Of a DNA stretch of 64,000 nt, positions 3,381-61,342 are shown in pieces; the stretch's first letter is position 1, and each line of letters opens with the position of its first letter. The notes beneath the pieces were generated by a model. That model was not told where the DNA came from. It saw only the letters and a list, made by a program, of their open reading frames with translations, and did not search any database. The DNA is taken from the NCBI GenBank assembly GCA_020002185.1, contig CM034532.1:52781944-52845943 (forward strand), written 5' to 3'. The position numbers and the translations under genes were made by a program. This DNA is from Paraescarpia echinospica (lineage: Eukaryota > Annelida > Polychaeta > Sabellida > Siboglinidae).

Positions 3381-3404
3381 CATCATCTTTGACACATTGG
3401 ATTG
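3381..3404 (-). CDS. Tail micro-exon, 24 nt (IQCVKDD)
   Basis: Acceptor ACTCCTCGGTTTCAG, near-consensus donor GTAAGA, phase 1-1, encoding IQCVKDD. The acceptor is shared with 5,637. Leftmost array exon seen; no terminal exon with a stop was recognised, so the gene may run off the left edge. Confidence 0.5.
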
Positions 3405-3609
3405 CTGAAACCGAGGAGTTGATTGCAAGTACACAAAATAAGAACAGTACACTTAACCGTATCCCATATGATAAGTCACTATCACGATGTTAACGTGGTC
3501 ATTATCCATTTCCGACTATACTACTAAAACATGTCTCGATACATTACTCAGACCTATAATATACTCATATCCATCCAGTTAAGACGTAAGACAAGAACTA
3601 AACAGTTTT

Positions 3610-4830
3610 ATATAATAATTTATAACCTTAGCTTTATTTCTAAGATACTAGAAAAGGTTGTAGCTAACTGTCTAAGGTCTCACCTTATCACAAATGTTTT
3701 AACTATATTGTTACAATCAGCATAAAAAAATTCATTCAATATAAACTGCTCTCTGAAAAGTATAGAATGATATTAACTTGAACACTGATAAATGTAAAGG
3801 AACTGCATTAACATTACTTGATCTGTCTGCCGCCTTTGATACCATTGATCACATTCCTATTAAACGCTTATCAAAATGGCACGGTATATCTGGCACAGCT
3901 CTGAGCTGTTTTTTTTATACCTAACTGACATATATATCAAACCATTAAGATTGGGAACTGCCTTTCGGCTGCATTGTTAACTTTATGTGGTGTCCCCCAG
4001 GGCTCTGTTCTTGGGGCTTTGCTTTTCTTTACACTGCGCCACTAAGCTCTCTTATGCAAAGTCATAACTTGGATCATCATATATACGCTGACGACACACA
4101 CACTACATTTCTTTGGCTACCCCAAATGCAAATCGCTCCATAAACCAGAGTAGTGATTGCCTCCAAAATATATTCCACTGGATGACTGACCGCAGATTAA
4201 AGTTAAATGTTAATTAGACTGAATTTCTCATCATTGGTACTCCAATGCAGCGTGGTAAACTTGATCTTTTTTTCCAACGCGTATTTTGAGTCAGAATATT
4301 ACACCAGCAACCTTTGCACGTAATCTGTAAGTAATCTGTAATAATAACTTCAATTTTAGAAAACATATATATCAAATGTGTCGCTGCATTGTTTACCATA
4401 TAAGTGACTGTCGCCGTTTTCGTTGGCATATGTAAAACTATTGCACCAGCTCTTGCTAGGAGCAGACTTGACTATTGCAATTCCTCGTTTATAGTATCGC
4501 TAGCAAGGACATTACCAAACTTCAACGTGTCTAAAAATGTTGGACAAATCTCCTCGTCTGTTTTCGCTCATTGCCATTTATGAAATCACTGCATTGGCTA
4601 CATGTGCGATATCGAATTTCTTCAAGATCTGTACAATTATCTATCAATCCCTATCATCCAAACAACCTGCATACCAGCATACAATGCTTACTCCAGCAAA
4701 ATATCAGCTTAGGTCAGCAAATTATATTCTACTTTTTCCCATAGTTAAAACAAATGCTGGAACTCGCGCCTTTTCGGGTGCCACATCAACTTTGTGGAAT
4801 TTACTATCTATCAGTATTAAGTGAGTAAGA
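3610..4830 (+). pseudogene. Decayed L2/CR1-like LINE polymerase
   Basis: Blocks LSFISKILEKVVANCLRSHL, LIKMA-type remnant of the RT A motif (AAFDTIDH at 3,830), ALFLGL, YADD remnant near 4,090, RLKLNVN..EFLIIGTPMQRG and at the end KICTIIYQSLSSKQPAYQ, NAGTRAFSGATSTLWN. The order is that of an L2-like polymerase from RT to C-terminus. Stops are frequent. Same family as 16,980-17,460. Confidence 0.78.
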
Positions 4831-5094
4831 AAAACAGTGTAATTTCGCAGTCATCCAAAAACCTATACGTGTGACCTTTGTCATGTACTTGACAATGAGA
4901 ACACTTAAGCTTTAGATTTTTTGAGCCACTGAGCTCGGATTTTCCGAGGATATTGGCGTTAAATAAGTAATTCCATTATTATTATTTATTAATTAATTAA
5001 AATGTATCGTATTTGAAATTGTTACGAGGTTCCTTATTAAGTTATCATATATTGTATCACATATATATTATATTATACATAAATGATATATTAC

Positions 5095-5118
5095 CTTCTT
5101 CTGCGGGAAGTCCTCCTT
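5095..5118 (-). CDS. Tail micro-exon, 24 nt (GGLPAEE)
   Basis: Acceptor CATCTCTGTTTCAG, donor GTAATA, phase 1-1, encoding GGLPAEE. A related but dead copy lies at 5,617-5,637. Confidence 0.5.
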
Positions 5119-5616
5119 CTGAAACAGAGATGTTGAATATCTAGTTTAGAATAAAAACACTAATTACTTTTGTAATTATGTTACAGTAATTACTCTGCGT
5201 TTCCCTTTATACACATGCATAGGGCATACTGTGCAATACGGTACAAAGTTATGATCAAAAGGTAAGTAAGTAAGTTGATTAGAAGGGTGGTTATAAATAA
5301 CACTATTACAAACATATTGCAACATAAACAACTCCCAACTTGATATTATTTATATACCATGAAGCAAACTTGATTGTGCCAAACTCAACAATGAAACCAA
5401 ATTCAGTAATGAATCATTATTTGCACATCTACATTTTGGAAATAACTCAATTTCCACGATTAACTGGACATTCATATGTACTACCAATGCATACCAAATT
5501 CATTGTGTTGTATATTCAGGGCTTAGATATTTTAATTGTTACAAGGTTTTGTATTAAATTAACAGAAATTACATCAAACAAATATATAACTGTATAAATA
5601 TATGATATAGAATATT

Positions 5617-5637
5617 CTTCTTCGGGGAGTCTTGTTT
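5617..5637 (-). pseudogene. Dead copy of the 24 nt micro-exon
   Basis: Acceptor CCTCGATTTCAG is intact and the peptide would be TRLPEE, 21 nt. The donor GT is replaced by AA (GAAGAATATTC), so the exon cannot be spliced normally. The surrounding 500 bp duplicates 5.0-5.3 kb. Confidence 0.5.
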
Positions 5638-5699
5638 CTGAAATCGAGGAGTTGTATTAATCATCTGTATCCAAAATTATGTGTCTCTAAATTTAATAG

Positions 5700-6580
5700 A
5701 GTAATTATAATAATAATTACGTTTGTAATTGCATTTCAAACAATTTACCAAACATAATAGAATAGTGTACTACCACGGTTGCGCATTGACCTGTATTTCA
5801 CATGAACATCAAAACAGAATTGCATGTGTGCTTCTGTAATATACTCAAACGCAGGGCTTACTGTGCAATGGCATATTTACCCAAAGTTATGATTACACGT
5901 ATAATTACACAACCTAATGTTACATAGATTATATCATAACACGCACAATAACAAATTGTTCTAAAATTTTATTATTTGTGTAACATCAAGGATACTTGAT
6001 TCTACCAAACTCAAAAACAATACGTTATTTACACATCTGCATTTTTTACATATGTCAATTTCTGCAATTAATTAACCATTCATTACGTACTTTCAATGCA
6101 AACGGTGACCTAGTTTGACCTTATAGCCACACTTACTATATCAGGTAACAGGTACACATCATATCTCATTTTGATTGGGAGACAATGAGCTTTTTAAAAA
6201 ATAAAGATTTATAGACTGGTTTCTAATATTTGCTTCATTTCCAAAACACTTAAAAATTGTTCCGGTATGCCTTAGATCTCATATTAGATTAAACTGTATG
6301 TCTAATGTACTCCAATATGTATACAAACAACTCCATTATACGGAGACTGTTCTCTTAAAAGTGGACAATGCTATACATTTTAAATATGGATAAAGGTAAA
6401 GTAACAGCATTATAGACTCTCTGCCAGTGTCTGGATTGGGGCCAGGTCATGTCAATGGTACAACAGATGGATGGAGGAGGCTAGAGATAAGAGGCAACAT
6501 CGGTTGAGAAGATTCACAGGACTGTGTGAATGCGATCATCTGCCAGGCAAGCCAAGTCAGCATTGCCTTAAAGTCATGGT
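5700..6580. other. AT-rich intron-like stretch
   Basis: Contains a copy of the intron block with AGGGCTTACTGTGCAATG and ..AAAGTTATGAT also present near 5,220 and 17,850. No exon found. Confidence 0.5.
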
Positions 6581-6589
6581 ATCAGTCTT

Positions 6590-7615
6590 TACTGCTTTTT
6601 CCAACTAGACAATTACAGAAAGAAGGGAACTTGTCAGCGTCTCTAATATAGTCAATAGTTGGCAAGAGGAAATATTTAACAAAGATAGACTGGAATAACA
6701 CACTTAAGAATAAGACTGCAACATAATGCTGGGATATGTTATGGAAAGAAATTGAGTGCATCGTCGATAAGTTTGTTCCATTGAAAAAAACGTTAAACGG
6801 TCCAGAATTAAACATTTATTGAAATAAGCCATTAGAAAATTAAGTAAAAAATTATGTGGAAGTCATATAGACGCACGGATAATGATGAAGACTACAATAT
6901 TTAAAAAGAAGCAGTTAACCAAGCTACACCTTAAATTAGACAAATTCAAAGACAAGCTATGAACAAAAATTAACTTGTAATATAAAACATGACAGCAAGA
7001 GGTTTCATGCATATGTTCGGAGCAAAAAGAAAGTTCAGGATATGGTCGGTCCTTTAGAAGATTGTGCTGGAAATATAATATCAGAGGGATTCTTAATGGC
7101 AGAAGACCTGGATGAGTACTTTAGTTTGGTGTTTACCACGGAAGACATTAGTGCACTGCCAGTACCAGAGGCCGGAATCAGACTATTTCGGACAGTTATT
7201 TGTAACCCCGGAAATGGTAGCTAAGGAAATAAGGGTAATAAAATATAATAAATCACCTGGAATGGATGGGATTCCACCTAAACTACTATTGAAAATCGTA
7301 GAACAATTTAATATAATGCCTGCAAAGTTTTCAACTTGTCTTTAAACGAGGGAGTGGTTCCTCTAGAATGGAAAGAAGCAAACATCAAACCGTTTTCATA
7401 AAGGGTTCGAGAAACTAGTCAGAGAACTACAGACCGGTGAATTTAACATCGGTGATTAGCGAATTATTAGAAAGACTAATTAAAGATCACATGGTGGATT
7501 TTCTTGTTAAACATAACATGATAAACCCATCTCAACATGGGTTTCTAAAAGTGAGATCATACTTAACAAACATGTCATGTTTTTGGAAGACATCACTAAG
7601 TGGGTAGACGAGGGA
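6590..7615 (+). pseudogene. CR1-like LINE fragment (block 1, longest)
   Basis: Plus-strand blocks KRKYLTKIDWNNTLKNK, CWDMLWKEIECIVDKFVPLK, LMAEDLDEYFSLVFTTEDIS, EIRVIKYNKSPGMDGIPPKL and the degraded NYRPVSLTS region are the segment between endonuclease and RT palm of CR1-like LINEs. Stops and shifts are common. The LINE is cut at about 7,615, where intron sequence resumes. Confidence 0.8.
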
Positions 7616-8158
7616 ACACCAGGAGATATGATATATAAACACAAGAAAATAATGTACTTTATTCCCATATGTAGCAAATCTGTATTTCAACCGGATAAAT
7701 CCGTATTGCTCTGTGCATATTTTGTGCCACCATTTATCAGGCATATCCATGTATATACACACACAATATTATCCTCGGTTGTCATACGTATGTTAGTCCA
7801 CCTGATGTGGGCGAGGAACTACTTATCAGCTGCACTGGCCACACCTCAGTAACTAAAACTCTGCCTTAAGGCAACATCAAAGGGTGATCAATTGCTGCTC
7901 TGCCTACACCTCAATAACTTACAATCTGCCGTAGGGAACTGCCTAGGAGTGAACACCTACTTTCTACGATTCACACGTTGAAAAGAGTTTTGCTCATACA
8001 ATGTCCAAACAGATGCAGGCAGGCAAAGCTAATTTATCTGTAGTGTAAAGTCACATAATATAACACACGTCAGCAAAATAAAATGTCTGCAGGATCCTCT
8101 TGAAGTTAACAAAATATTTATTAAACAGAATTAAGATTAAAAACAAATGATACACTAC

Positions 8159-8308
8159 TTCCTGTCTTCGGACGCGTGTCTTCTGCAGGAACATCAGAAG
8201 CAACCGTAGGATCATCATCAGCAGCTGCAACATAAACAATCACAACATCATTAGCTATATTAACAATTGCAATGGCAGCAGCAATAAAAACAGAAACCAC
8301 AAACGTTG
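8159..8308 (-). CDS. Tail exon D4c, 150 nt
   Basis: Copy in block 1. Same start TFVVSVFIAAAIAIVNIAND and end VPAEDTRPKTG. The three copies stay open with intact GTAGTG donors. Confidence 0.62.
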
Positions 8309-8721
8309 CTGTCACAACAGTAACGCTCAGCTGGTTCAGACTATTTTGTGGTGTTATTTTTTCTTAATTTCTTCCCCATAATGCTCCTACTAGTATGTCT
8401 GCCTGGTCCAGTGGCCAGTATAGTTGCTGGTTGCTATGGCAATGATGACAAAACAAATAATGATTGGGTGGTTTCACAGGAAAGGTAGCAAAGTGACTAT
8501 CGTACCCAACTTGCCCCATACATTTAGACCACTATGGTACAGTGTGTATTATTGTATCTTTGCATCTTTGATATGCATGTAGACACAGCAACTATGACCA
8601 TTTGAGAGCAGATGCTATTACGGTTAGGAAGGTATGAACAGAGATGTCCTCAACTTCACAGATATCTCAAGTCACACTTGTATTTTCATAAACCTAAACC
8701 TGGTGAGAATTATTTATTCTT

Positions 8722-9215
8722 AATGGCAGAAGACCTGGATGAGTACTTTAGTTTGGTGTTTACCACGGAAGACTTTAGTGCATTGCCAGAACCAGAGGCC
8801 GGAATCAGACTATTTCGGACAGTTAATTGTAACCCCGAAAATGGTAACTAAGGAAATAAGGGTAATAAAATATAATAAATCACCTGGAATGGATGGGATT
8901 CCACCTAAACTACTATTGAAAATTGTAGAACAAATTAATATAATGCCTGCAAAGTTTTCAACCTGTCCTTAAACGAGGGAGTGGTTCCTTTAGAATGGAA
9001 AGACGCAAACATTATACCGTTTTCATAAAGGGTTCGAGAAACAAGTCAGAGAACTACAGACCGGTGAGTTTAACATCGGTGATTTGCGAATTATTAGTAA
9101 GACTAATTAAAGATCACATGGTGGATTTTCTTGTTAAACATAACATGATAAACCCATCTCAACATGGGTTTCTAAAAGTGAGATCATACTTAACGACATC
9201 ACTAAGTGGGTAGAC
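8722..9215 (+). pseudogene. CR1-like LINE fragment (block 2)
   Basis: Same segment as block 1 but starting at LMAEDLDEYF. Best-preserved stretch: RNKSENYRPVSLTSVICELL and INPSQHGFLKVRS. Confidence 0.8.
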
Positions 9216-9764
9216 GAGGGAACACCAGGAGATATGATATGTGAACAAAAGAAAATAATGTACTTTATTCCCATATGTTGCAAATCTGTATTTTAACCGG
9301 ATAAATCCGAATTGCTCTGTGCATATTTTGTGCCACCATTTATCAGGCATATCCATGTATATAGACACACTGTATTATCCTCGGTTGTTATACGTCTGTT
9401 AGTCCACCTGTTGTGGGTGAGGAAATACTTATCAGCTGCACTGGCAACACCTCAGTAACTCAAACTCTGCCTTAAGGCAACATCGAAGGGTGATCAATTG
9501 CTGCTCTGCCTACACCTCAATAACTTACAATCTGCCGTAGGTAACTGCCTAGGAGTGAACACCTACTTTCTACGATTCACATGTTCAAAAGAGTTTGCTC
9601 ATACAATGTCCAAACGGATGCAGGAAGGGAAAAGCTAATTTATCTGTAGTGTAAAGTCACATAATATAACACACGTCAGCAAAATAAAATGTCTGCAGGA
9701 TCCTCTCGAAGTTAACAAAATATTTATTAAACAGAATTAAGATTAAAAACAAATGATACACTAC

Positions 9765-9914
9765 TTCCTGTCTTCGGACGCGTGTCTATTGCAGGAACAT
9801 CAGAAGCAACCGCAGGATCATCATCAGCAGCTGCAGCATAAACAATCACAACATCATTAGCTATATTAACAATTGCAATGGCAGCAGCAATAAAAACAGA
9901 AACCACAAACGTTG
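9765..9914 (-). CDS. Tail exon D4b, 150 nt
   Basis: Copy in block 2, with the same splice sites. Changes include VYAAAADDDPAVASDVPAID instead of VYVAAADDDPTVASDVPAED. The frame is kept, so substitutions have not broken it. Confidence 0.62.
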
Positions 9915-10327
9915 CTGTCACAACAGTAACGCTCAGCTGGTTCAGACTATTTTGTGGTGTTCTTGTTTCTTAATTTCTTCCCCATAATGCTCCTACTAGT
10001 ATGTCTGCCTGGTCCAGTGGCCAGTATAGTTGCTGGTTGCTATGGCAATGATGACAAAACAAATAATGATTGGGTGGTTTCACAGGAAAGGTAGCAAAGT
10101 GACTATCGTGCCCAACTTGCCCCATACATTTAGACCACTATGGTACAGTGTGTAGTATTGTATCTTTGCATTTTTGATATGCATGTAGGCACAGCAACTA
10201 TGACCATTTGAGAGCAGATGCTATTACGGTTAGGAAGGTATGAACAGAGATGTCTGCAACTTCACAGATTTCTCAAGTCACACTTGTATTTTCATAAACC
10301 TAAACCTGGTGAGAATTATTTATTCTT

Positions 10328-10845
10328 AATGGCAGAAGACCTGGATGAGTACTTTTGTTTGGTGTTTACCACGGAAGACATTAGTGCATTGCCAGAACCA
10401 GAGGCCGGAATCAGACTATTTCGGACAGTTAATTGTAACCCCGGAAATGGTAGCTAAGGAAATAAGGGTAATATAATATAATACATCACCTGGAATGGAT
10501 GGGATTCCACCTAAACTACTATTGAAAATTGTAGAACAAATTAATATAATGCCTGCAAAGTTTTCAACTTTTCCTTAAACGAGGGAGTGGTTCCTTTAGA
10601 ATGGAAAGAAGCAAACATTATACCGTTTTCATAAAGGGTTCGAGAAACAAGTCAGAGAACTACAGACCGGTGAGTTTAACATCGGTGATTTGCGAATTAT
10701 TAGAAAGTCTAATTAAAGATCACATGGTGGATTTTCTTGTTAAACATAACATGATAAGCCCATCTCAACATGGGTTTCTAAAAGTGAGATCATACTTAAC
10801 AAACATGTCATGTTTTTGGAAGATATCACTAAGTGGGTAGACGAG
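10328..10845 (+). pseudogene. CR1-like LINE fragment (block 3)
   Basis: Third copy, with the same start and end points as block 2, showing that it was copied as part of the tandem block and not inserted again. Confidence 0.8.
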
Positions 10846-11390
10846 GGAACACCAGGAGATATGATATGTGAACACAAGAAAATAATGTACTTTATTCCCA
10901 TATGTAGCAAATCTGTATTTTAACCGGATAAATCCGTATTGCTCTGTGCATATTTTGTGCCACCATTTATCAGGCATATCCATCTATATACACACACTAT
11001 ATTATCCTCGATTGCTATACGTCTGTTAGTCCACCTGTTGCGGGTGAGGAAATACTTATCAGCTGCACTGGCCACACCTCAGTAACTCAAACTCTGCCTT
11101 AAGGCACCATCAAAGGGTGATCAATTGCTGCTCTGCCTACACCTCAAAAACTTACAATCTGCCGTAGGTAACTGCCTAGGAGTGAACACCTACTTTTTAC
11201 GATTCACACGTTGAAAAGAGTTTGCTCATACAATGTCCAAGCAGATGCAGGCAGGCAAAGTTAATTTATCTGTAGTGTAAAGTCACATAATATAACACAC
11301 GTCAGCAAAGTAAAATGTTTGCAGGATCCTCTCGAAGTTAACAAAATATTTATTAAACAGAATTAAGATTAAAAACAAATGATACACTAC

Positions 11391-11540
11391 TTCCTGTCTT
11401 CGGACGCGTGTCTTCTGCAGAAACATCAGAAGCAACCGTAGGATCATCATCAGCAGCTGCAACATAAACAATCACAACATCATTAGCTATATTAACAATT
11501 GCAATGGCAGCAGCAATAAAAACAGAAACCACAAACGTTG
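11391..11540 (-). CDS. Tail exon D4a, 150 nt
   Basis: Phase 1-1, acceptor TTACTGTTGTGACAG, donor GTAGTG. Starts TFVVSVFIAAAIAIVNIAND, then VVIVYVAAADDDPTVASDVS, ends AEDTRPKTG. About 27 hydrophobic residues, then an acidic stretch: a plausible membrane helix. Confidence 0.62.
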
Positions 11541-12334
11541 CTGTCACAACAGTAACGCTCAGCTGGTTCAGACTATTTTGTGGTGTTCTTGTTTCTTAAT
11601 TTCTTCCCCATAATGCTCCTACTAGTATGTCTGCCTGGTCCAGTGGCCAGTATAGTTGCTGGTTGCTATGGCAATGATGACAAAACAAATAATGATTGGG
11701 TGGTTTCACAGGAAAGGTAGCAAAGTGACTATCGTGCCCAACTTGCCCCATACATTTATACCACTATGGTACAGTGTGTATTATTGTATCTTTGCATCTT
11801 TGATATGCATGTAGACACAGCAACTATGACCATTTGAGAGCAGATGCTATTACGGTTAGGAAGGTATGAACAGAAATGTCCTCAACTTCACAGATTTCTC
11901 AAGTCACACTTGTATTTTCATGAACCTAAACCTGGTGAGAATTATTTATTAAATGTTATGGAAAATATGTAAAATGCGACAACACTTCATCAACACCCCA
12001 GATATTAAATAATTTTTGAATCAACTGCATCATATTCCGTTAAATGACTATTGATGATGTCCGTTTTTGAACATTGATACTTGTAACTCATTTAAAATTG
12101 AGGACAGATTCCACAGTATGCTTTAATACATTGTTCTGTGTATCTGTATAAAGTGAATGTATAGAATGTACACCATCTTGCAACCTGAACTATATTACTG
12201 GAATAACAGGAAACACAGCTGAGAAGTTGCTTTTATTGTTTTTCAGCAGGTAATTTACCGAATTACATGGCGTGTTAAGTTTAATAATAATAATAAAGTA
12301 AGAAATGATTGTGTCCTTTCTTGAACGACCACGT

Positions 12335-17617: not shown

Positions 17618-17695
17618 CTTTTGACTCACTGATATCGGGTGCTGGTGTGGCTGCAGTGGCTGCAGTGGCTGCAGTGGCTGCAGTGGTGCCTGCTC
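17618..17695 (-). CDS. Tail exon, 78 nt (Ala-Ala-Thr repeat)
   Basis: Phase 1-1 exon between TTATTATGTTCAG and GTATCT. Encodes AGT, four ATA/AAT-type repeats (codons ACT GCA GCC), then TPAPDISESK. The perfect 9 bp repeats (GGCTGCAGT on the plus strand) make it length-variable in steps of three codons, always in frame. Confidence 0.6.
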
Positions 17696-20001: not shown

Positions 20002-20058
20002 CTTTTTTAAAGAAGCCGCCCCAACCACGAGGGCCGGCTGCTGCTGCGGGTTTGGCCT
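20002..20058 (-). CDS. Tail exon E3, 57 nt (Ala, Gly, Lys)
   Basis: Encodes AKPAAAAGPRGWGGFFKK between CCTTGGTTTCAG and GTACAT, phase 1-1. Same acceptor as E2 and same length, but a different peptide. The intron repeat unit lies just downstream, as for E1 and E2. Confidence 0.6.
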
Positions 20059-20699: not shown

Positions 20700-22800
20700 T
20701 TAAAAACACTGGTGCAACGTCCCTAGGGGACTAATAATAAACTATGCATAAAACAATGCTTCTCAACCTTTGTTGATCTCAAGGCACGCTTTCGAGTTCG
20801 GTCCTAGCGGCATAACGTACCAAATGTTACCATGTCAACTTGTACATATCTTCTACATTTTGAGACCAACTTATATTTACAAGGCAGACTAAACACCCCA
20901 TTGTTCCACATGGGTGAACAAACTTGCAAAGTTTATAATGTATAAATAAATATTTATAATCATTTGGCTTAACAAAACAAAAAGTTCTCGGAGAAGTTGT
21001 TTTGACATAACCTAACGCTGTTGTTCTTGATTACTAATAATGTAGCGAATTTCCCAAAGGTACGTTGTTGAAAACAGACGCAATACAACAATGGCACTAT
21101 CATGTTAGGATGGCCTTTTTTCAACTGCACGCAATGCGTCGACATGAGATTGAGATGCCATCACTCCTGATGGCTATACTATACTCTCGCACTTTCATAC
21201 TATTTTCTAATGCTTCTATAGATGAAACAGAGGGATCCCTAACCAAATCATACTGCTCCGAGTTAGTCAGTTTGAAATAATGCTATATGTAGGAGGTGGC
21301 TCATAGGGCATGTTGAAATGGACCATTAATACATATCCTTACTGAACTAAGCACGTTCTGGTGTTAAGCTGATATTATTATAGGCTAATACATTTGAACA
21401 TATCATGACCAAAGGTATCAGCCATGAATGCCAGATTTCCCATCCAGTATTTGTTCTGTACAATGCTGCAATTCGTTGTGCAACATCGGAAACGTTTGAA
21501 ATTCATCTCCATAAGCTCAATAATAATATTATTGACAGAAATTAGCAAAAGCCAACGAACCAGTGGAAACAAAGTGGGAGTAGTAATTAACAATATGCAG
21601 GAAATGCGAGATTTGATTGCCATTGGGCGATGTTTGGGGTTTCAATCAGACCTAATTTCAACAGGTCCGACAGGCTACTTGCCATTACATTTTCACGATG
21701 AAAGAACCTGTCTGTGGTTCGAACAGTAGCGTTTAGATTGTTCACATTTGATACACAGCCTTTGCCATCTCTTGGTTATTAATCTGGTAAATGTTATTGA
21801 AACAGCGATGTTGCATGCATGTTGTTGCTTTCGCTATTAATCTATTAACGCTTTAGGTAGCGTCAAGCACCACTATCATAACATTTCGCGCAGTTCAGTC
21901 TTTTCATAACGGAATCTTGATTCAAGTCTGCTCTAGCAACAGTTTGAAGGAACTGATGTCCCAACCAATGATAATGAGTGCCTAGCGGAAATGTGACACT
22001 TTGGTCTGTTTGCAAAAAATATCACGTTTTTTATAATTATCGCTACAAATGTGACACTCCTCTTATAATTCCACGGCACACCTGGGACTCGGAAGGAAGT
22101 TCCTTTAACATTAGGGAATGGAATGATGTCTGTGTACAATGCACCATCAATAAATCGTACCTTTTGGCTGTTCTTGTGATTCACCGGGTGTACCCTTCTT
22201 ATCATCTGGACAAGTTGCATGGCAGTTCTGGTCACATAATTAGCAGTTATTTACTGTCGATAGGGGTCATTTTGGAGATTTTTTCCGAAGTTGAGATGAG
22301 TAGTGTTGGAGATTGTTTGCGGTATCTAGGAGGGTAGTGTTAGAAATAGTTCCCATTATCGAGGGTAGTGATGGAGATTTTTGCGGTTTCCAGTTTGGCT
22401 GGAATCACAATTGATTTCTTAAGTTAGGATCACAAATCAAGCACATAATATTATAGTATCTTATCTGTTAGTGTAGACCCTTGTGTAATTTCGTGCAGAA
22501 TGTTCGTTAAAAGCAACCTTTCACTTGATTATGAATTTTTTTTTTAAGTTTAAAAAAAATTAAGGTCGCAATTTTTCTAAGCAGGATAAGTTTAGCAAAT
22601 TCAAAAAGGTCGCCCACCATGCAAACTTTTCACTATTTCATATAAATTTTGTTTCACATAATAATTAGTTTCACACAATTGTAAAATAAACCGGCGTGCA
22701 GGACGATATATTATATCCATGTGCCATACATTTATTATTCCGAAGGTCGGTCCTCGGAACCGGTAATTTTGGAAAAGCAAAATTTTGCAAATAACATATC
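20700..22800. other. Stretch with no supported gene
   Basis: The longest open frames (21,424-21,729 plus; 21,978-22,337 plus; 21,933-22,235 minus) have no recognisable motif and no clear splice context. GAGGGTAGTG-type short repeats occur at 22,280-22,390. Confidence 0.4.
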
Positions 22801-23306: not shown

Positions 23307-23336
23307 CTTCAGATGAATTTCCGGTGCTCGAAGAAC
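23307..23336 (-). CDS. Tail exon C3 (serine-rich), 30 nt
   Basis: Encodes SSSTGNSSE between TTCTTTTTCTCAAG and GTAACT, phase 1-1. The pyrimidine tract is strong. It resembles C1 and C2 in composition and in having a GT-rich tract nearby. Confidence 0.55.
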
Positions 23337-24796: not shown

Positions 24797-26639
24797 TCAT
24801 ATATGGTTATAACTGTGTGGGGAGATGTGATATGGCAGGTCAATTGGCATGGTAGCTGCCCATGGCGCCAACGATCTGAAATCGGCTACTTGACCGCGTG
24901 ACAATCTATCTGCCAGCACGTTGACGCGACCTGGCACATGACATGCCATGAAGTTGATGTTGAACCTCAGACATGTGAGAACCATTCTACGAAGTAGAGC
25001 CATAAGATGGGGTTCACGGGATGTCTGCTTATTGATTACTGGTACAAGCGCCTCATTGTCAGTGAAAAAGCAAACACTCCGGTTTGCCCATTCTTCCCCC
25101 CAGACTTCGACTGCGGCAACGATAGGGAACAACTCTAACACTGCAATGTTGAGGGAATACCAAGAGTGATGGCCAGGTTCCCCAGAACCATTCCTTGTCA
25201 TACACTGCCCCATAACCTACCCTACCTGATGCATCGGTATACAGCTCCAAATAATCACCTGCGTGAAACTTGTCATTCAGGAAGAATGCTCTACCATTAA
25301 AATCTCTCAAGAAATCTTGCCACACTTTCAGGTCGAGTTTGACTTGCTGAGTAAGCCTTACATGATGGTGTGGTCTGGTCAAGCCTACAGTTAAATCGAT
25401 GAGGCGCCTTAAGAAACATCTTCCCGCTACAACCACCGGGCATGCGTGCCCCAATACGCCAATGAGAGATTGAAGATGCTGGAGAGTGACTTTCTGCCTT
25501 GCTAAGAATTCAGCTACAAGCGACTTACATTTCGCCAACTTATCCTCCGGGAGTCTGGCTTCCAACCTGACTGTGTCCAACGTGATGCCTAAAAAGGGGA
25601 GTGTAGTAGCGGGACCCTGCGTCTTCTCCTGCGCTAAGGGGACGCCCATCTGCCTACATAGCGAAATGAAAGCATTCATGTCAGCTGCACATTTTTCAGA
25701 AAAATCTGCGAGGAACAAGAAATCATCGATATAATGGACCATTCTCGATACATTCAACTTAGACCTAGCTACCCATTCCAAGGCTGTACTGAAATATTCG
25801 AAAATAGAACAGGAACTAGCGCAACCCATAGGAAGAACAGCGTCCATATAGAATTTCCCTATCCACTGAAAACCTAACAATGGCGTGTCCTGTGGTGAAA
25901 CTGGGATTATGCGGAATGCCGCTTCGATGTCTAGCTTACCCAAGAAAATTGTGCACGGGGACTTCTTGATGAAGGTAATAGCGTCCTGTACCGTCGCATA
26001 CTGTACTGAAGAGAATTCATGTGGAATACCATCATTCACTGACGATCCCCCTGGATAAGATAAGTGATGAATCACTCGATACTCACCAGGTGTCGTTTTA
26101 GCTACAACTCCGAGCGGGGACACCCTGAAGTTGGGAACATTAGGTGGAACATTGCATGGCCCAATAATACGACCTAATTTCAATTCTTTCTTAATCTTTG
26201 CGTCTATTACTTCTGGATACTCGAATGCAGATTTCAAATTTTTAGTCAATGTTTGTGATTGAACTGGTGTATTAAGACAACCTAAACGAAAACCACAGGT
26301 AAAGCCGTGGATAAGGTAGTGGGATAGATTGCTATCATAACCTTGCAACATGAGCTGTAGTACTGCTGGGGAAACAGGTGACGGCAGGAGATTGTGTTTA
26401 TTGTCTGGGGTTAATGCGTGGGGTAATTGCTGGCAACACGGCTGTACTGGTCTGTCTATATTGGATTCGCGGACACTGGGTAACTGGGTGGCCTGCCCCA
26501 CATCGCTTGCATTTGTGCTGGTAGCGACATTTGCGACTGTCACAGTGCAGGCCCTTGTTATATGTGAAACAGGGGTTGGAACTTTGTGCCGGCCGGCGGG
26601 CTCCTCCCTTGCCATGAAAGGGGGTCCCCCGAACGGCAT
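24797..26639 (-). pseudogene. DIRS-type reverse transcriptase and RNase H
   Basis: The first frame (26,639-25,059) holds RT: LGKLDIEAAFRIIPV (first catalytic Asp, residues 234-247), MGCASS (SPxxF-like block) and VHYIDDFLFL (YIDD at 303-306), then RNase H start LELYTDASGRVGYGAVYD near 465. The frame then shifts near 25,180 to 25,213-24,797, which continues AVLELFPIVAAVEVWGEEWA, RSVCFFTDNEALVPVINKQT and HVPGRVNVLADRLSRGQV. These are typical DIRS RNase H blocks. All catalytic residues are present, but the one-base shift splits RNase H. It ends just before repeat B1, leaving no room for a recombinase downstream. Confidence 0.88.
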
Positions 26640-26691
26640 GCTTACCGTTCTGCTTGCTTGCAGCCAAAGCTCGGATTCGACAGTGTCCCAT
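26398..26691 (-). CDS. Zinc-knuckle end of gag
   Basis: Encodes CFTYNKGLHCDSRKCRYQHK, then CKRCGAGHPVTQCPR, the C...C...H...C and CxxCgxxHxxxxC fingers typical of DIRS/Ngaro gag. It overlaps the start of the RT frame in a different frame, so polymerase expression would require a shift or separate start. Confidence 0.7.
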   Translation of the reverse strand: MGHCRIRALAASKQNGKHAVRGTPFHGKGGARRPAQSSNPCFTYNKGLHCDSRKCRYQHKCKRCGAGHPVTQCPRIQYRQTSTAVLPAITPRINPRQ

Positions 26692-26699
26692 CCTCAGTT

Positions 26700-29559: not shown

Positions 29560-30183
29560 CTAGAGCCATTTGGCTGCCCTGAGAATTGCCCCCCGGTAAC
29601 TCCTGAATAACTTGTAGTTCCCCAAATCGTTGAAATGAACCCCATCTTCGCGAAATACCCGGTCCTGCGGATTCATAAAACCCTTATGCTTCCAAAACGA
29701 GACTTGGTGGCATTGCTCGCACGCGGCCCTAACTATCTCGTTTACGCTCGCGGCACGCGCGGCCCCCTCCGATGGCGAAAAATGTCGCCAACCTTCACGT
29801 CTAATGAGTTGACCGATAACGACGTGGCTTACGCCGAACGCTACTAATTCGGTGGCAAACTCTAACAAATCCCATGCGATCTGCTGCGGACAGGGGCCCC
29901 CTGACGTGTCGATATCATTACCGCCTACGTGCAGTAGAACGACCTGCGGATCCAAACAAGCAAAACGCTCCCAGTGCTCGTCGGAACGCAACGATTGTAC
30001 TGTAGCCCCTCGACGGCCAACGTATTTCACGTTGAAACCGTGACCGTCGACGGCAAAATCTGCCGAGACCCCTGGCCAAGCCCAGGATGGACCGGCCGAC
30101 TCCAAAAACCGCGCTAACCAGAAAACATGGCTATCGCCCACGATCACTGCTCTATAGCCCCCCGTGAAACGGTCAGTCGCCAC
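29560..30183 (-). CDS. SGNH-hydrolase-like protein of the Ngaro element
   Basis: A 207-residue intact ORF. VIVGDSHVF (catalytic Ser at residue 18 in GDSH), a loop with ...GRRGATVQSL, VVLLHVGGNDI (GGND at 87-90) and DGVHFND near residue 182 (Asp...His pair) give all four SGNH blocks in order. Ngaro-type elements of animals often carry such a putative esterase, but usually after the polymerase. Here it is the first ORF in the element, about 170 bp inside repeat A1. Its role in these elements is unknown. The reading frame is unbroken while gag and pol are shifted, which suggests it is young or maintained. Confidence 0.8.
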   Translation of the reverse strand: MATDRFTGGYRAVIVGDSHVFWLARFLESAGPSWAWPGVSADFAVDGHGFNVKYVGRRGATVQSLRSDEHWERFACLDPQVVLLHVGGNDIDTSGGPCPQQIAWDLLEFATELVAFGVSHVVIGQLIRREGWRHFSPSEGAARAASVNEIVRAACEQCHQVSFWKHKGFMNPQDRVFREDGVHFNDLGNYKLFRSYRGAILRAAKWL

Positions 30184-35541: not shown

Positions 35542-35577
35542 CTGATGATGAAGAGCTGGATTCTTCTTTGCTTTCAG
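35542..35577 (-). CDS. Tail exon C2 (serine-rich), 36 nt
   Basis: Encodes ESKEESSSSSS between TTTATTTCAG and GTACTA, phase 1-1. It is the duplicate of C1 with diverged acidic part and conserved splice sites. Confidence 0.62.
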
Positions 35578-37013: not shown

Positions 37014-37040
37014 CTTTTTTGTCGTCGTCTGTTTTCTCTA
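37014..37040 (-). CDS. Tail micro-exon, 27 nt (EKTDDDKK)
   Basis: Acceptor CTTCTTTTATAG, donor GTAACA, phase 1-1, encoding EKTDDDKK. A second AG inside would give a 15 nt form (DDKK), resembling the 37,733 exon; both keep the frame. Confidence 0.5.
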
Positions 37041-37732: not shown

Positions 37733-37747
37733 CTTTTTTGTCTTTGT
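37733..37747 (-). CDS. Tail micro-exon, 15 nt (KDKK)
   Basis: Acceptor AATTCTTGGTTTCAG, donor GTAATG, phase 1-1, encoding KDKK. The acceptor is shared with exons at 58,984 and 20,058 (TTGGTTTCAG). Confidence 0.5.
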
Positions 37748-40270: not shown

Positions 40271-40309
40271 CTGATGATGATGACGATGATGAGCCTGACT
40301 CGGTTTCAG
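40271..40309 (-). CDS. Tail exon C1 (serine-rich), 39 nt
   Basis: Encodes ETESGSSSSSSS between TTTATTTCAG and GTATTA, phase 1-1. The exon and its flanks (ACTTAGATA.TG.TCA...ATCGTTATTT) are duplicated at 35,542-35,577. The low-complexity serine run comes from TCA repeats. Confidence 0.62.
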
Positions 40310-46161: not shown

Positions 46162-46212
46162 CTTCTCCTATATCCTGACGTCTGTCTTCTGGAGCAGCAA
46201 AAACAAACGTAG
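46162..46212 (-). CDS. Tail exon D3, 51 nt
   Basis: Encodes TFVFAAPEDRRQDIGE after GTTGGTGTTGCAG and before GTAGCA, phase 1-1. It aligns with the start and end of the 150 nt D exons (TFVVS ... PAEDTRPKTG) but lacks the long hydrophobic middle. The donor-side intron (AAAACAAATAATATGCTACC) matches that of D2. Confidence 0.6.
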
Positions 46213-50100: not shown

Positions 50101-50929
50101 TTTTGACACCGTCAAATCCGGGCCTGCTGTCCCGTTCACGAGTGTGTTCAAATAATTCGAATTCTAAAATAGCTTCCAATTAATTCAGGTCTAACTTGGT
50201 AGTTGTAAATGATGTTGTTGATAATAATAATAATAATACGTTGTGAAACATGTTAAAAACTATACAAAATGTTCATATGTATGATTTGTTTAAGTAGGCC
50301 TAAATATTTACATGTTAATCTGCGTTCTTAAAATAAATATTTGAAATAGGAAAAACGCTTATATTATCAATATTACAATAATAATAAAATCGATAATATG
50401 TAATAAGACAATTGAAATCCAAATCCCTTAGGCTGCTACCTGTGAATAACTGTCCACACCTCAATAACTCACAACCTGCCATATGAATGACCAACAGCTG
50501 CACTAATGTCCAAGGACGTCAGCTTTCCTCAACATTTCGCGTCTTTCATCTGAAAGTTTTGTTCAAGGATACAAGACATATTATCAATCATGCTAACGAC
50601 ATGCTATGCATAAGCAGTTTTTTTTTTAAATATTTCTAGCATTACTGGTATTTGCAGCATCGAGTATTGTATTATTATTATTATTGAGGATGATTACGGG
50701 GGTGGTGCATCCGCGGGTCGTCAGCGTGACGAAACGTTAGGTGGGGAATTTCCCGGGGGAATTTCTTGGTAAGCATTGCGTAACAACTAAAAAGAAAACA
50801 TGTTAGTTCGTCTAGCTCTCGATATCAGACTGATATCAAACATTGCTATACCAGTTACAATCAGAAGTGTCTGACTTTTAACGAGAGTTTTATAGTATTG
50901 GGCATATCAATACAAGAACTTTGAAGAAG

Positions 50930-51211: not shown

Positions 51212-51250
51212 CCCCATCTTCCATGATACATGGTACAGATGGCGTCTCTT
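51212..51250 (-). CDS. Tail exon B2 (EETPSVP class), 39 nt
   Basis: Encodes EETPSVPCIMEDG between TTGTTTGTCCAG and GTATGC, phase 1-1. It is the paralogue of 61,214-61,252, and its whole A2-B2 neighbourhood resembles the 61 kb module. Confidence 0.62.
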
Positions 51251-51775: not shown

Positions 51776-52375
51776 GTGACAACAGCTACTGCAACAACAA
51801 CGGCTACTGCAACAACTGCTGCAGCCACCACATCAGCCGCCACATAGCTGCAGCCACCACAGCAGTCGCCACAATGGCTGCAGCCACCACAGCAGCCGCC
51901 ACATAGCTGCAGCCACCACAGCAGTCGCCACAATGGCTGCAGCCACCACAGCAGCCGCCACAATAGCTGCAGCCACCACAGCAGTCGCCACAATGGCTGC
52001 AGCCACCACAGCAGCCGCCACAATAGCTGCAGCCACCACAGCAGTCGCCACATAGCTGCAGCCACCACATCAGCCGCCACATAGCTGCAGCCACCACAGC
52101 AGTCGCCACAATGGCTGCAGCCACCACAGCAGTCGCCACAATGGCTGCAGCCACCACAGCAGCCGCCACATAGCTGCAGCCACCACAGCAGTCGCCACAA
52201 TGGCTGCAGCCACCACAGCAGTCGCCACAATGGCTGCAGCCACCACAGCAGTCGCCACAATGGCTGCATCCACCACAGCAGCCGCCACATAGCTGCAGCC
52301 ACCACAGCAGTCGCCACAATGGCTGCAGCCACCACAGCAGCCGCCACAATAGCTGCAGCCACCACAGCAGCCGGT
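51776..52375. repeat. GCTGCAGCCACCACAGCAG minisatellite at a D-exon position
   Basis: About 18 tandem copies of a 29-30 bp unit (GCTGCAGCCACCACAGCAG, then YCGCCACA, then ATG or TA). The sequence just to the right (52,376-52,500) is the standard D-exon upstream flank, so the repeat is an expansion of an alanine-coding D exon. Because 29 and 30 bp units alternate, no single minus-strand frame stays Ala/Val throughout: it switches to Trp/Leu/Cys-rich frames. It probably no longer encodes a normal exon. Confidence 0.8.
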
Positions 52376-56892: not shown

Positions 56893-56899
56893 CTAAACC

Positions 56900-57890: not shown

Positions 57891-57899
57891 ATACACTAC

Positions 57900-58211
57900 C
57901 TTCTACTTCCGCCTGACGACTTTCTTCTGCTTCTGCTGAAGCAACAACAGCAGGAGTTACAACAACAACAACAACAACAGCCACTACAATGACAACCACA
58001 ACAGCAGCAGCTACAAGAACAATATCATCATCAGCAGCACCGGCAGTACCGGCAGCACCGCCAGCACCGGAAGCACCAGCAGCAGCGGCGGGTGAGGCGG
58101 CGGCGGCGGCACCAGCAGCAAAAACAGTAGTAATAACAACTGCAACCACTACAGCTGCTGCCACAAAAGTAACAGTTGCAACGACAACTGGAGCAGCCAC
58201 AACAACTGGAG
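57900..58211 (-). CDS. Tail exon D2, long Ala/Val-rich segment, 312 nt
   Basis: Entry after CTCATTGCTGTAG and exit at GTAGTG, phase 1-1, 104 codons. The peptide starts APVVVAAPVVV, passes through long Ala/Val/Gly runs with an ADDD break, and ends ASAEAEESRQAEVE. The hydrophobic runs are long enough for membrane helices. The acidic end matches the other D exons (46,162; 8,159; 9,765; 11,391). The alanine runs arise from GCA/GCT/GCC repeats, so length may vary between individuals. Confidence 0.6.
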
Positions 58212-58844: not shown

Positions 58845-58927
58845 GGTCCACTATGCAATGTCCACACCTCAATAAGCCAGAATCTACATTAGTTCGCTAC
58901 CCAGGGATTATCATAAGCGGCACTTAC
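58845..58927. repeat. Dispersed intron repeat (ACCTCAATAACTCACAATCTGCC family)
   Basis: A 50-60 bp degenerate unit with the order 'cacctcaataa.tcacaatctgcc.taagg.gctacct.ggagtg.ccat...gcactgtc'. Further copies lie near 7,836-7,960, 9,440-9,560, 11,070-11,190, 17,490-17,575, 19,545-19,645, 19,905-19,995, 50,430-50,515, 59,455-59,626 and 61,535-61,615, usually beside an array exon. Confidence 0.7.
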
Positions 58928-58984
58928 CGTGGGCGGCTGCTTTTTTGTTCAACTTGGCCTCGCGTCTTGCTTCGCGTCTGGCTT
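58928..58984 (-). CDS. Tail exon E2, basic, 57 nt
   Basis: Phase 1-1 exon encoding ARREARREAKLNKKAAAH, with acceptor ATTGGTTTCAG and consensus donor GTAAGT. It shows an internal ARRE duplication relative to E1. One of the best splice-site pairs in the array. Confidence 0.65.
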
Positions 58985-59039
58985 CTGAAACCAATAATTG
59001 ATTGAATGTGTATGACACGGGCAACCACAGTAGTAACAA

Positions 59040-59188
59040 CAACACATCAGCTACAGCAACACCAGCAACAGTAGTCACAGCGGCAGCAGATATAAAACAA
59101 GCAACAGCAGCAATAGCAGCAACAGATGCAACAACAGTTGCAGTAGCAATTAAAGCTACAGCGACAACAACTGCGGCTACAACAGCTG
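59040..59188 (-). CDS. Probable D-class exon or exon relic
   Basis: After a CCTAACCCTGGCAG acceptor the minus strand reads AVVAAVVVAVALIATATVV and further Ala/Val sequence in the same frame as other D exons. The upstream flank (GGAGGATTGTGGGACAG, TCAAGAACAAAC) is shared with D copies at 8.4, 19.0, 52.4 and 58.3 kb. No clear GTAGTG donor remains, only a weak GTGTTG, so it may be inactive. The left limit is approximate. Confidence 0.4.
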
Positions 59189-59626
59189 CTGCCAGGGTTA
59201 GGACAATCTACTGGTGTTGTTTGTTCTTGACATCTGTCCCACAATCCTCCTACCAATGTTCGTCTGGTCCAATGGCCACAGTTGTTGCCGGCTACTATGT
59301 CAGCGATTACCAAACGTGTTATGTGTAACATATTTTCAAATCAAATAAAAAAAATAATAATTATAGAACATATATCAATGATTCACACTTTGGAAGAGTA
59401 ACTAGATTGGCTATACAATATTCAAACAGGTGCAGACAGGTCAAACTAATTTATTTTGCTGTACTACCCACACCTCAATAACCTCAAAACCAGGAGTTAC
59501 CATTAGCCTCACTGTCCACACCTCAATAACTTACAGTCTGTCTTAGAGCAGTATCTAAGAGTGAACATCTGCTGCACTGTCCACACCTAAAAAACTCACA
59601 ATCTGCCTTATGGTGCTACCTTGGAG

Positions 59627-60326
59627 CAGACCTGGGGTCAGATACATCATATATATGTATCTTATGTATCTAGATACAATTTTGAATGTATCTGTATCTG
59701 TATCTAGATACAGTGCGCCGAAATCAATATGTATCTGTATTTTATTTAGATATATTCCAAATGTATCTGAAATTTCAGATACATTTCAGATACATTTTAG
59801 ATAGATCATTGGTCAAGAAGGGATATGTCCCACTCCCACGTAGCCAAAAGTTGTTAATTGTAATTATAGGAAACAATTAGTAGAAGCCAAGTACCTACTC
59901 ATGGCTTCATCATATCCACCAAAGGAACCAGTTTCTTTTGAAAATGTCTGACAGCAACTAAAGAAGCCAATTGGATAGGTGCTCCATGAAGGACTCAACA
60001 TTCGAGACACTTATGTTCATCCGTATGAACTCTTAGTAATTGCATGCTATTTGTATGTATGCAAGTGTAATATTAATAAAATAAAGCTGTCATAAATAAA
60101 TAAACTGAGTGTTTTTTAGTTTCTTATACTTCGCCATTACCGATCGCAAATTTAACCATAAAATGTATCTGTATCTGTACCTAGATACATTTAGAAATAA
60201 TGTATATGTATATGTATCTAGATACATTTAGAAATAATGTATCTGTATATGTATCTGTATCTGGCCAAATTAAAATGTATCTGTATCTTATCTAGATACT
60301 TTTCAAATGTATCTGCCCCAGGTCTG
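59627..60326. mobile_element. Non-autonomous hAT-like element, 700 bp
   Basis: Both ends read CAGACCTGGGG(Y)CAGATACAT as inverted repeats, with many GTATCT/AGATAC hexamers just inside each end (59,640-59,810 and 60,165-60,315). The flanking 8-mers CCTTGGAG (59,619-59,626) and CCTAAGAG (60,327-60,334) look like an 8 bp target-site duplication with two later changes. A CAG...CTG terminus and 8 bp duplication are typical of hAT elements. No transposase is present. The element interrupts one copy of the dispersed intron repeat. Confidence 0.75.
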
Positions 60327-60348
60327 CCTAAGAGTGGCCATCACTTAC

Positions 60349-60393
60349 CATGGGCGGCTTCTTTCTTTTTCAACTTTACCTCGCGTTTTCTAT
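60349..60393 (-). CDS. Tail exon E1, basic, 45 nt
   Basis: Phase 1-1 exon encoding RKREVKLKKKEAAH, between TTTGTTTTAG and GTAAGT. It belongs to the same class as 58,928-58,984 (both end in an ...AAH module just before GTAAGT). Highly basic and likely solvent-exposed. Confidence 0.6.
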
Positions 60394-61213
60394 CTAAAAC
60401 AAAGGCGTCGGAAACTATTGAATATGGGGGGTGGGATCGACGGCAGCGAGCATAATGTGGCCAACCAAAAAATTATGTAACACACAAAATCTTTTTTAAT
60501 TTGCCCCCATGTAATGCGCCGTAATGCTGGACCGAATCCCCGCCCAAAAATACGAAAACACTGAAGATCCAGGACTAGATTTTAAATAGCACGATGGGTA
60601 TATTTATCGGAAAGGATATGTTTAGGCGGGGGTCTAAAAACCTGAAATACTGACTATGGAACAGTTTCAAATTGTTCCTCATATTGTTGTCAATCTAACA
60701 TAATTGGATTCAATCTATATCTCTTAGCGGCCAGTTTGGATCAATTGAGTTTAGTTGTCATGCCATAATTAACACCGTTATGATGGATTTCTCATGACCT
60801 CAAACAGATAAGATAATGGCAATTGTTCAATTCAAAGTGCATGCACATCCAAATTATGGATATGCGTACAGACACATGCGCGCACGCTCGCACAAAAGCA
60901 GGAACACGCGCGCGCAAGCACATACACACACACACACACCAGCCGGATTCACTTTCTTGCCCGTATTGTCAATAATCCATCAAAACGTAATTCATACTCG
61001 ATGTTTTGCAATACCCTCTTGGCTGCCCGATTAAATTGTCTAAGGAACCGAGTGAACATAGAAAGAGTGGGCCTCGTCGCCTAGGAGGAGGTTCAAAACA
61101 CCAAGGTTAATGTACTAATATATAGATTAGCGAGATTGATCACCTGCATTTCATTAGGTGGCAAATCTTAAATAAACATTTATGTAAATTTCTGCTGTGG
61201 TGAACATTCATAC

Positions 61214-61252
61214 CTTCATCTTCCATGACGGGTGGCACAGATGGCGTCTCTT
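61214..61252 (-). CDS. Tail exon B1 (EETPSVP class), 39 nt
   Basis: The exon encodes EETPSVPPVMEDE between TTGTTTGTCCAG and GTATGA, phase 1 at both ends. The paralogous exon at 51,212-51,250 reads EETPSVPCIMEDG with the same acceptor and a similar donor. A proline/acidic linker with no recognised domain. Confidence 0.65.
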
Positions 61253-61307
61253 CTGGACAAACAAGTAGTGTTAGTACTGGTGTTATCGGTACCAAAATAT
61301 TGTATAC

Positions 61308-61342
61308 CATTAAATGCATCACATAAAGCAGTCATCACACCA
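61308..61342 (-). CDS. Tail exon A1 (TGVM class), 35 nt
   Basis: The exon encodes (x)GVMTALCDAFN, between an AATTTTAG acceptor and a GTATAC donor, entry phase 2 and exit phase 1. It joins in frame to exon B1. A second copy of the same class occurs at 51,311-51,351 (TGVMIPALHVAFK). Conservation of both splice sites and peptide in two copies 10 kb apart supports a real exon. Confidence 0.6.

Follow-up and report, generated by a model that had tools for sequence, protein, structure and literature searches.

A phosphoglucomutase-like gene of the annelid Paraescarpia echinospica with a putative array of about 84 in-frame microexons

Do arrays of tiny symmetrical exons supply real repertoires of protein, or only one long repeat? 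A locus of the annelid Paraescarpia echinospica makes this question testable. We analysed a stretch of 64,000 nucleotides (nt), hereafter the window (GenBank assembly GCA_020002185.1, contig CM034532.1, here C2; C2:52781944-52845943, a window coordinate being the C2 coordinate minus 52781943), together with 240 kb of flanking DNA, 304 kb in all, and ran genome searches over the 1.084-Gb assembly. The initial annotation had described an array of symmetrical phase-1 cassette exons behind a phosphoglucomutase (PGM)-like domain. A PGM-like gene does precede an array of small exons on the same strand, and homology between the end of its last PGM exon (exon C) and an array exon of the AAH class links the two. 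We consider the locus to be probably one very large minus-strand animal gene, in which a head with the PGM fold would be spliced into an array of microexons used as cassettes.

The head begins upstream of the window and ends within it, with the following predicted exons (window coordinates unless C2 is given).
About C2:52853505-52846267, outside the window, minus strand: head exons 1-7; exon 1 has only an approximate 5′ end
63303..63422, minus strand: PGM-like head exon 8, 120 nt; placed by tblastn (43.9% identity), by the exon chain, and by what the joined head hits in Pfam and PDB
62673..62877, minus strand: PGM-like head exon A, 205 nt; placed by splice scores and translation
62127..62261, minus strand: exon B of the PGM-like head, 135 nt, with a substituted phosphate loop
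61619..61838, minus strand: head exon C, 220 nt; encodes the final PGM helix and a 45-residue tail, with phase-1 donor G/GTACGT

Joined exons A, B and C encode the C-terminal domain of PGM1 (PF24947, 57.5 bits, where the cut-off is 27), and the remaining PGM1 was found in order over 20 kb upstream by tblastn with a human PGM1 query. The predicted chain is phase-consistent over 11 exons with an open frame throughout (the 5′ end of exon 1 being approximate) and yields 612 residues; two junctions were chosen by hand, one of them with a GC donor. All four PGM Pfam domains score above cut-off in the joined head (PGM_I 77, II 40.3, III 29.5 and PGM1_C 65.8 bits), which matches PGM1 (5epc) with 417 bits over residues 2-562 and is homologous over its whole length to PGM1 and PGM5 chains. 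An intact PGM1 lies on the same strand about 290 kb from the head (C2:52528428-52552189) and matches in eleven pieces at the positions found in the head. Homology and exon positions make the head a complete PGM1 paralogue, a tandem duplicate in which fold and eleven-exon layout persist; the PGM-like domain noted initially is present, corrected to a whole paralogue with altered loops. The four domains of a PGM1 enzyme are there and its conserved active-site loops are not: TASTAH stands for TASHNP (the serine is retained), DADGV for DGDGD, GDELQG for GEESFG and, in exon B, REFEYPMSG for RLSGTGSAG. We take these to be the catalytic, metal, sugar and phosphate loops of PGM1, all four of which the neighbouring PGM1 keeps. 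Because all four have changed, the head is probably a pseudoenzyme. The donor of head exon 7, just below C2:52846267, seems to be of the GC type (CAG/GCAAGT). The frame of exon A, used as a protein-search query, gave nothing useful.

The junction between head and array lies in exon C. The neighbouring PGM1 terminates directly after TVIT; at this position exon C has no stop and continues for about 45 residues to its donor. Three relatives (P0001-P0003, the last on a 2.7-kb contig and possibly cut) align to exon C at 55-59% identity, with conservation peaking between the predicted acceptor and donor, and the stop that follows the donor in the window is not common to the three, whose frames continue. 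A genome search returned one match to exon C (a lower bound), so the relatives probably come from other genomes; searches of viral and GTDB contigs for further relatives gave nothing useful. The last ~45 nt of exon C, its donor and the following intron align in the same phase with the AAH exon at 58984-58928 (score 51 against 29 for the best control). By this alignment the AAH exons and the end of exon C appear to be of common origin, which ties the array to the PGM-like gene. The array might instead be a separate same-strand transcription unit between the PGM-like gene and PGM1, unspliced to the head. Its geography leaves some room for this, since the first array exon lies 0.37 kb past exon C and the first intact 24-nt exon about 56 kb farther, but the phase-1 donor of exon C, the absence of the following stop from the relatives and a homology that spans donor and intron make such a unit improbable.

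Behind exon C, the array runs for about 200 kb on the strand of the head, more than three times as far as the window shows, and comprises some 84 predicted microexons. The members and candidates inside the window are as follows.
61214..61252, minus strand: array exon EETPSVPPVMEDE, 39 nt, EETP class; beyond the window it has two intact homologues of 39 nt as well as decayed ones
60349..60393, minus strand: array exon DRKREVKLKKKEAAH, 45 nt, AAH family
58928..58984, minus strand: array exon EARREARREAKLNKKAAAH, 57 nt; aligns with exon C over exon end, donor and intron
57900..57932, minus strand: array exon EAEESRQAEVE, 33 nt; behind a (UGY)n tract
51212..51250, minus strand: array exon EETPSVPCIMEDG, 39 nt, EETP class
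50482..50552, minus strand: decayed AAH exon copy, donor lost; nhmmer after one retraining round, E 2.2e-15
46162..46188, minus strand: array exon EDRRQDIGE, 27 nt
40271..40309, minus strand: array exon AETESGSSSSSSS, 39 nt, serine-rich
37733..37747, minus strand: array exon DKDKK, 15 nt
37014..37040, minus strand: array exon VEKTDDDKK, 27 nt, or 24 nt starting at 37037
35542..35577, minus strand: array exon AESKEESSSSSS, 36 nt, serine-rich
23307..23336, minus strand: candidate array exon GSSSTGNSSE, 30 nt; homologue not found in the 304 kb
22161..22205, minus strand: array exon DDKKGTPGESQEQPK, 45 nt; EETP-like acceptor context, no other homologue found
20002..20058, minus strand: array exon EAKPAAAAGPRGWGGFFKK, 57 nt; acceptor context common to 58984 and 37747
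17618..17695, minus strand: candidate array exon GAGTTAATAATAATAATPAPDISESK, 78 nt; no exon homologue, two repeat-like plus-strand matches
11391..11414, minus strand: candidate array exon EDTRPKTG, 24 nt; weak donor (1.4), ends in A, outside the count of 16
8182-8159 and 9788-9765 (acceptor damaged), minus strand: copies of EDTRPKTG
5095..5118, minus strand: array exon EGGLPAEE, 24-nt class; profile E 7.4e-10
3381..3404, minus strand: array exon AIQCVKDD, 24-nt class; profile E 2.8e-07

Sixteen catalogued window exons have both splice sites scoring above 4, and all 16 end in G. The tally of 84 adds to these the 59 of 61 intact 24-nt profile matches that lie outside the window (for two of the 59, the exon is really 27 nt long and was scored as 24) and nine more: the exon at 52699812, two of the AEM class, four of VS-SP, and one each of DGIP and HHGH. 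The 24-nt class dominates the array, although only two intact members fall in the window. Its profile gives 104 minus-strand and 3 plus-strand matches at E up to 10 in the 304 kb; at E<=1e-3, 61 of 79 minus-strand matches are intact (48 unique sequences), and all 61 end in G. Typical eight-residue modules are EAKRVKEE, EARRQAEE, VVTLSAEQ and AKQLDQER. Part of the class sits in 5-kb tandem units that are ~87-97% alike and carry four exons. Near the far end, other classes appear: AEM (39 nt), VS-SP (36/42 nt), DGIP (39 nt) and HHGH (45 nt).

The candidates described initially could be matched class by class; minus-strand symmetrical intervals occur over the whole span then given, down to 3404-3381, and beyond it. 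Most of the recurring classes stand, namely the basic AAH exons (60393, 58984), the serine-rich pair (40309, 35577), EETPSVP (61252, 51250) and exons with acidic ends (57932, 46188). The long Ala/Val-rich 'exons' do not and were dropped: they read through (UGY)n tracts, which are open in all frames when perfect, and are probably intronic. Further intervals with strong sites (such as 51346-51311, 48510-48451, 47697-47683, 22129-22082 and 10552-10490) were left uncounted, with homologues absent, or unsought beyond their own tandem copies or overlaps. Across 276 segment pairs from 24 candidates, 15 beat the best reversed-sequence control (29), or 12 once overlapping segments are removed, and they group the AAH exons with exon C, 20058 and 3404; the EETP exons; the SSS exons; EAEE, EDRR and EDTR; and DKDKK with VEKT. 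Lengths within families differ by multiples of three (45/57, 36/39, 24/27/33, 15/27 and 36/42), a regularity partly built in, as such length was a selection criterion for the first family members. Two acceptor motifs were first spotted in the exons and then counted. Each of the three window sites of TGGTTTCAG is the acceptor of a catalogued exon, where chance gives a mean of 0.69 and 5 of 100 shuffles attain three; the same is true of the three near-matches of TGTCCAGAAGA, for which the chance mean is 0.78 and 3 of 100 shuffles attain that number. A tandem triplicate of a 1.6-kb unit at window 7089-11950, ~95-97% alike, carries the EDTRPKTG candidate in each copy, the middle one with a damaged acceptor.

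The initial annotation held that the agreement of length and phase was unlikely to be chance. Bare counting cannot bear this out: the phase-1 cassette criteria are satisfied 4,397 times on the minus and 3,333 times on the plus strand of the window, and because chance alone yields thousands of such intervals, we dropped the raw count as evidence. When both sites must score at least 6, the minus strand yields 19/25/18 open intervals divisible by three in phases 0/1/2, the plus strand 7/4/7, and a set of six shuffles 6.0/6.3/6.8; the minus-strand excess appears in every phase because short intervals are often open in several frames. An argument from composition was set aside for the same reason, the minus-strand phase-1 set being richer in D, E, K and R at high thresholds.

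A test blind to frame upholds the claim for length. It took the best non-overlapping strong AG..GT intervals of 12-100 nt with an acceptor-plus-donor score sum of at least 12, with transposons, satellites, head exons and two of the three 1.6-kb triplicate copies masked. Length was a multiple of three in 33 of 64 minus-strand intervals and 10 of 41 plus-strand intervals (binomial P 0.002 against one third; Fisher P 0.005). The catalogued exons 60393 and 40309 are not the locally best intervals and were scored as not divisible by three. At sums of 10, 11, 13, 14 and 15 the minus strand gives 47/104, 37/82, 22/42, 13/28 and 9/18, and the plus strand 23/82, 16/59, 9/27, 6/18 and 5/10; the strand contrast vanishes at the highest threshold, where numbers are small. 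Phase 1 at both ends fared differently. Inside the window it is not distinguished, the 33 minus-strand intervals being open in phases 0/1/2 in 18/19/16 cases. The phase of the array comes from the exon C donor and the 24-nt class: strong AG-24-GT intervals number 56 on the minus and 3 on the plus strand of the 304 kb, and among these 56 the frame is open in phase 1 for 53, in phase 0 for 36 and in phase 2 for 44.

Binned over the 304 kb (unmasked, P values uncorrected and copies non-independent), the excess of lengths divisible by three is nominally significant in all five minus-strand bins of 52.64-52.84 Mb (P 0.0024, 0.0013, 0.0011, <0.0001 and 0.014) and in none of the eight plus-strand bins. 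The other minus-strand bins are not significant: 14/51 upstream of exon C, 19/58 at 52.56-52.60 Mb and 22/51 at 52.60-52.64 Mb (P 0.09). These counts would place the far end of the array in 52.60-52.64 Mb. Past the low end of the window, the array continues to about C2:52626571. Within the array region, intervals to the nearest donor fall 144/58/55 into lengths of remainder 0/1/2 on the minus strand versus 52/50/61 on the plus strand, and 24 nt is by far the leading minus-strand length (54/257); in the distal control the same classes count 22/13/31 (minus) and 23/8/20 (plus).

Could these exons be pieces of interspersed repeats, as we initially guessed for the recurring classes, or random AG..GT intervals? 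The thousands of bare-criterion intervals and the transposon frames in the window would favour this. Strand and position control, families restricted to the locus and genome-wide counts speak against it. In the 304 kb, same-strand profile copies number 13/13 for intronic element F1, 9/10 for F2, 9/9 for F4, 5/5 for AAH, 6/6 for EETP and 2/2 for SSS; later family profiles are also same-strand only, save the two repeat-like plus-strand matches of the 17695 exon. Outside the window, 52646644, 52640581, 52699812 and 52698093 have both splice sites, a length divisible by three and an open phase-1 frame; a further copy, 52693363, is 27 nt long with a stop, and the others have lost a splice site. Over the whole genome, the pattern TTTCAG-N23-GGTAAT occurs 292 times, 115 of them forward and 177 reverse, against 82 for a backward-pattern control. 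Among the 100 matches listed of the 292, 47 lie in the 138 kb of C2:52.649-52.787 Mb, all on the minus strand; the remaining 53 span ~226 Mb and the 192 others fall in ~858 Mb, a similar density that gives no sign of a second large cluster. The dispersal over both strands that marks an interspersed repeat was not seen in the three sequences searched genome-wide (the 24-nt pattern, clustered here among the matches listed, exon C and F2), and with copies same-strand and locus-restricted we abandoned the guess: an origin from repeats or chance is largely refuted and very improbable.

Two intronic elements recur beside the array exons.
59161..59337, minus strand: intronic element F2, located with nhmmer and recurring ahead of several array exons
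58346-58195, 52513-52343, 19122-18956, and 11710-11527 with its two tandem copies, minus strand: further F2 copies
61618-61547, 58927-58856, 19955-19894, 17559-17455 and others, downstream of array donors: intronic element F1, with internal GAGGTGTGGACAGT-like repeats

Upstream of several array exons, F2 copies are followed by (UGY)n tracts; behind one copy, at window 51818-52373, the tract contains a 30-bp minisatellite. A genome-wide DNA search found F2 in at least three places, all in the window, and is insensitive, missing window copies that the profile finds. With F1 directly after several donors and F2 ahead of several acceptors, a mutually exclusive choice of exons as in Dscam, through a docking site pairing with the repeated elements, came into question. 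Profiles of both elements on both strands of the 304 kb gave no convincing complementary docking site: F1 has no plus-strand match and the sole plus-strand F2 match is a short repeat-like piece. F1 is moreover without a match in the 24-nt part, where F2 has two weaker ones. We rejected docking by these two elements, which now seems scarcely credible.

The proposed cassette gene would have arisen and would work as follows. A tandem duplicate of PGM1 kept its layout and fold while its active-site loops changed; its last PGM exon would then have lost the stop and gained the ~45-residue extension with a phase-1 donor. Exon-plus-intron units would have multiplied by local tandem duplication, in units of up to 5 kb with four exons. 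A pre-mRNA would run from the head through the array, and microexons would be included as cassettes, different subsets giving the constant PGM-fold head tails that vary in length and charge. All checked exons (16 and 61) end in G, so every junction codon reads GNN and is never a stop, and any subset in any order stays in frame. The charged repeats, rich in Ala, Glu, Lys and Arg, suggest that the tail could serve in binding or as a scaffold, in helical or disordered form. More tentatively, and with rather less than even confidence, we suggest a somatic or tissue-specific repertoire from this single locus, in which a pseudoenzyme head would carry combinatorial tails from ~80 mostly eight-residue modules, built by tandem duplication of exon units beside a housekeeping gene; an animal would thus have an open-ended source of protein diversity.

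Alternatively, the array may be joined to the head with its functional exons all constitutive, giving one long repetitive charged tail, comparable to the repeats of titin or elastin, and little combinatorial choice. Homologous exons in tandem units with similar splice sites would suit such a tail, and duplication alone would also produce symmetry. The exon classes, however, vary in length and charge, and copies with lost sites or broken frames are tolerated, which is harmless only if they are skipped; we regard a constitutive tail as unlikely, though a serious contender.

Several observations weigh against the cassette gene. The splice-site matrices are approximate, and in the distal control 23 of 51 plus-strand intervals have a length divisible by three, an unexplained excess. 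The last exon candidate, at C2:52625641, is a guess. The borders of exon C are soft, as translated matches of P0001 and P0002 extend weakly into the preceding intron (E values of 0.006 and 0.015, respectively) and the P0002 match passes the donor, reading through the window's stop there. Eighteen of the 79 profile matches fall short of an intact 24-nt exon: two prove to be intact but longer, some are frame-broken between preserved sites, and the remainder have lost a splice site. Both splice sites survive in three AG-24-GT copies with stops, in one copy of 25 nt (C2:52682765) and in a 27-nt copy with a stop (C2:52693363), and frame-broken copies of this kind would harm any transcript that included them. 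Constraint on residues does not emerge clearly: the ratio of non-synonymous to synonymous differences (pN/pS) among 24-nt exons is 0.84-1.05, varying with the divergence allowed; recent tandem copies have 5 of 96 exon columns variable against 14.5 expected from the flanks (P 0.14); and phase-1 stops number 2 of 44 against 5.0 expected (P 0.10).

Such figures, with the decayed copies, would fit a relic, an array formerly used and now drifting. Yet 61 of the 79 profile matches retain both splice sites, exact length and frame, and exon C is conserved in the relatives. In 146 pairs chosen for exon similarity, acceptors are 74% and donors 89% alike against 48-57% in the near flanks, from which the splice sites, length and frame of the microexons appear mostly kept. 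Decayed and frame-broken copies amid intact ones are most easily borne if exons can be skipped, yet they also fit decay; together with the soft borders of exon C, frame-broken copies slightly weaken the case for cassettes and slightly raise that for a relic, which we still judge quite improbable.

The surrounding DNA holds other features. The neighbouring PGM1 has two copies of its N-terminal exon, near 52551980 and 52546556, which are possibly alternative first exons; one contains a TAA within the matched stretch. Eight array profiles have no match (E up to 0.01) in the examined stretches of this gene or of other PGM loci. Frames with RVT_1 (reverse transcriptase) and Lipase_GDSL_2 (GDSL-like hydrolase) domains, at window 24800-26693 and 29560-30183, presumably belong to DIRS-like transposons. 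Past the far end of the array, long plus-strand frames in a run at C2:52566361-52579560 resemble, we assume, a Polinton-type element. Scans for tRNA and with Rfam gave nothing of use.

If the cassette gene is real, a housekeeping gene has turned into a generator of protein variety, with its stop-loss origin still legible against the intact neighbour, and one animal gene would give a very large set of protein tails. PGM5 (aciculin) is a non-enzymatic PGM1 paralogue. The head resembles PGM1 and PGM5 over its whole length and has the exon layout of the neighbouring PGM1; it differs in the four loops, the absent stop and the array behind. Dscam of arthropods carries arrays of mutually exclusive exons and is similar in placing exon arrays behind a constant part, but the exons here are tiny and symmetrical and an F1/F2 docking site was not found in the 304 kb. 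Titin, in its PEVK region, and tropoelastin are structural proteins in which many small symmetrical in-frame exons encode repeats; only the present gene has an enzyme-fold head, and the exon families differ.

Micro-exon genes (MEGs) share much of the layout for which the initial annotation knew no described gene, and its remark needs qualifying to that extent. A literature search on PGM genes with microexon arrays and on large arrays of microexons, confined to titles and abstract beginnings of the best-ranked matches, with subscription papers and preprints outside it, brought up no PGM gene built like this one. MEGs of schistosomes and tapeworms have runs of tiny exons, mostly divisible by three, with long introns, and skipping preserves the frame (PMC10526429, PMC7653826); those of Schistosoma mansoni have 10 to 20 short exons and secreted products with an N-terminal signal peptide (PMC10526429). 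Genes bearing micro-exons are widespread, and the mainly-micro-exon, frame-proof kind is described, in the texts cited, chiefly from parasitic flatworms (PMC4015677, PMC10526429, PMC7653826). A signal peptide is not apparent by eye upstream of our exon 1, whose 5′ end is approximate (no predictor was used). The operational definition of PMC7653826 takes exons below 70 nt and divisible by three, sets a minimum of seven exons of which half must be micro, and asks for a run of four. The predicted gene has 11 head exons plus the array; micro-exons (61 intact 24-nt matches and others of 15-57 nt, with one candidate of 78 nt) outnumber the 11 of the head; and predicted microexons follow one another in genomic order, as do the 24-nt exons at 52.7713-52.7437 Mb. 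Under that definition the gene, as predicted, is a micro-exon gene. It is like the MEGs of these texts in its many tiny exons divisible by three and in a frame predicted from sequence to survive skipping; it is unlike them in its full PGM-fold head, its ~84 predicted exons mostly of one 24-nt class, its homologous exons and its origin from PGM1. Set beside the MEGs so described, than whose arrays this one is several times larger, the features that appear new are the enzyme-fold head, the scale, the multiplied homologous exons and the putative origin by loss of a stop.

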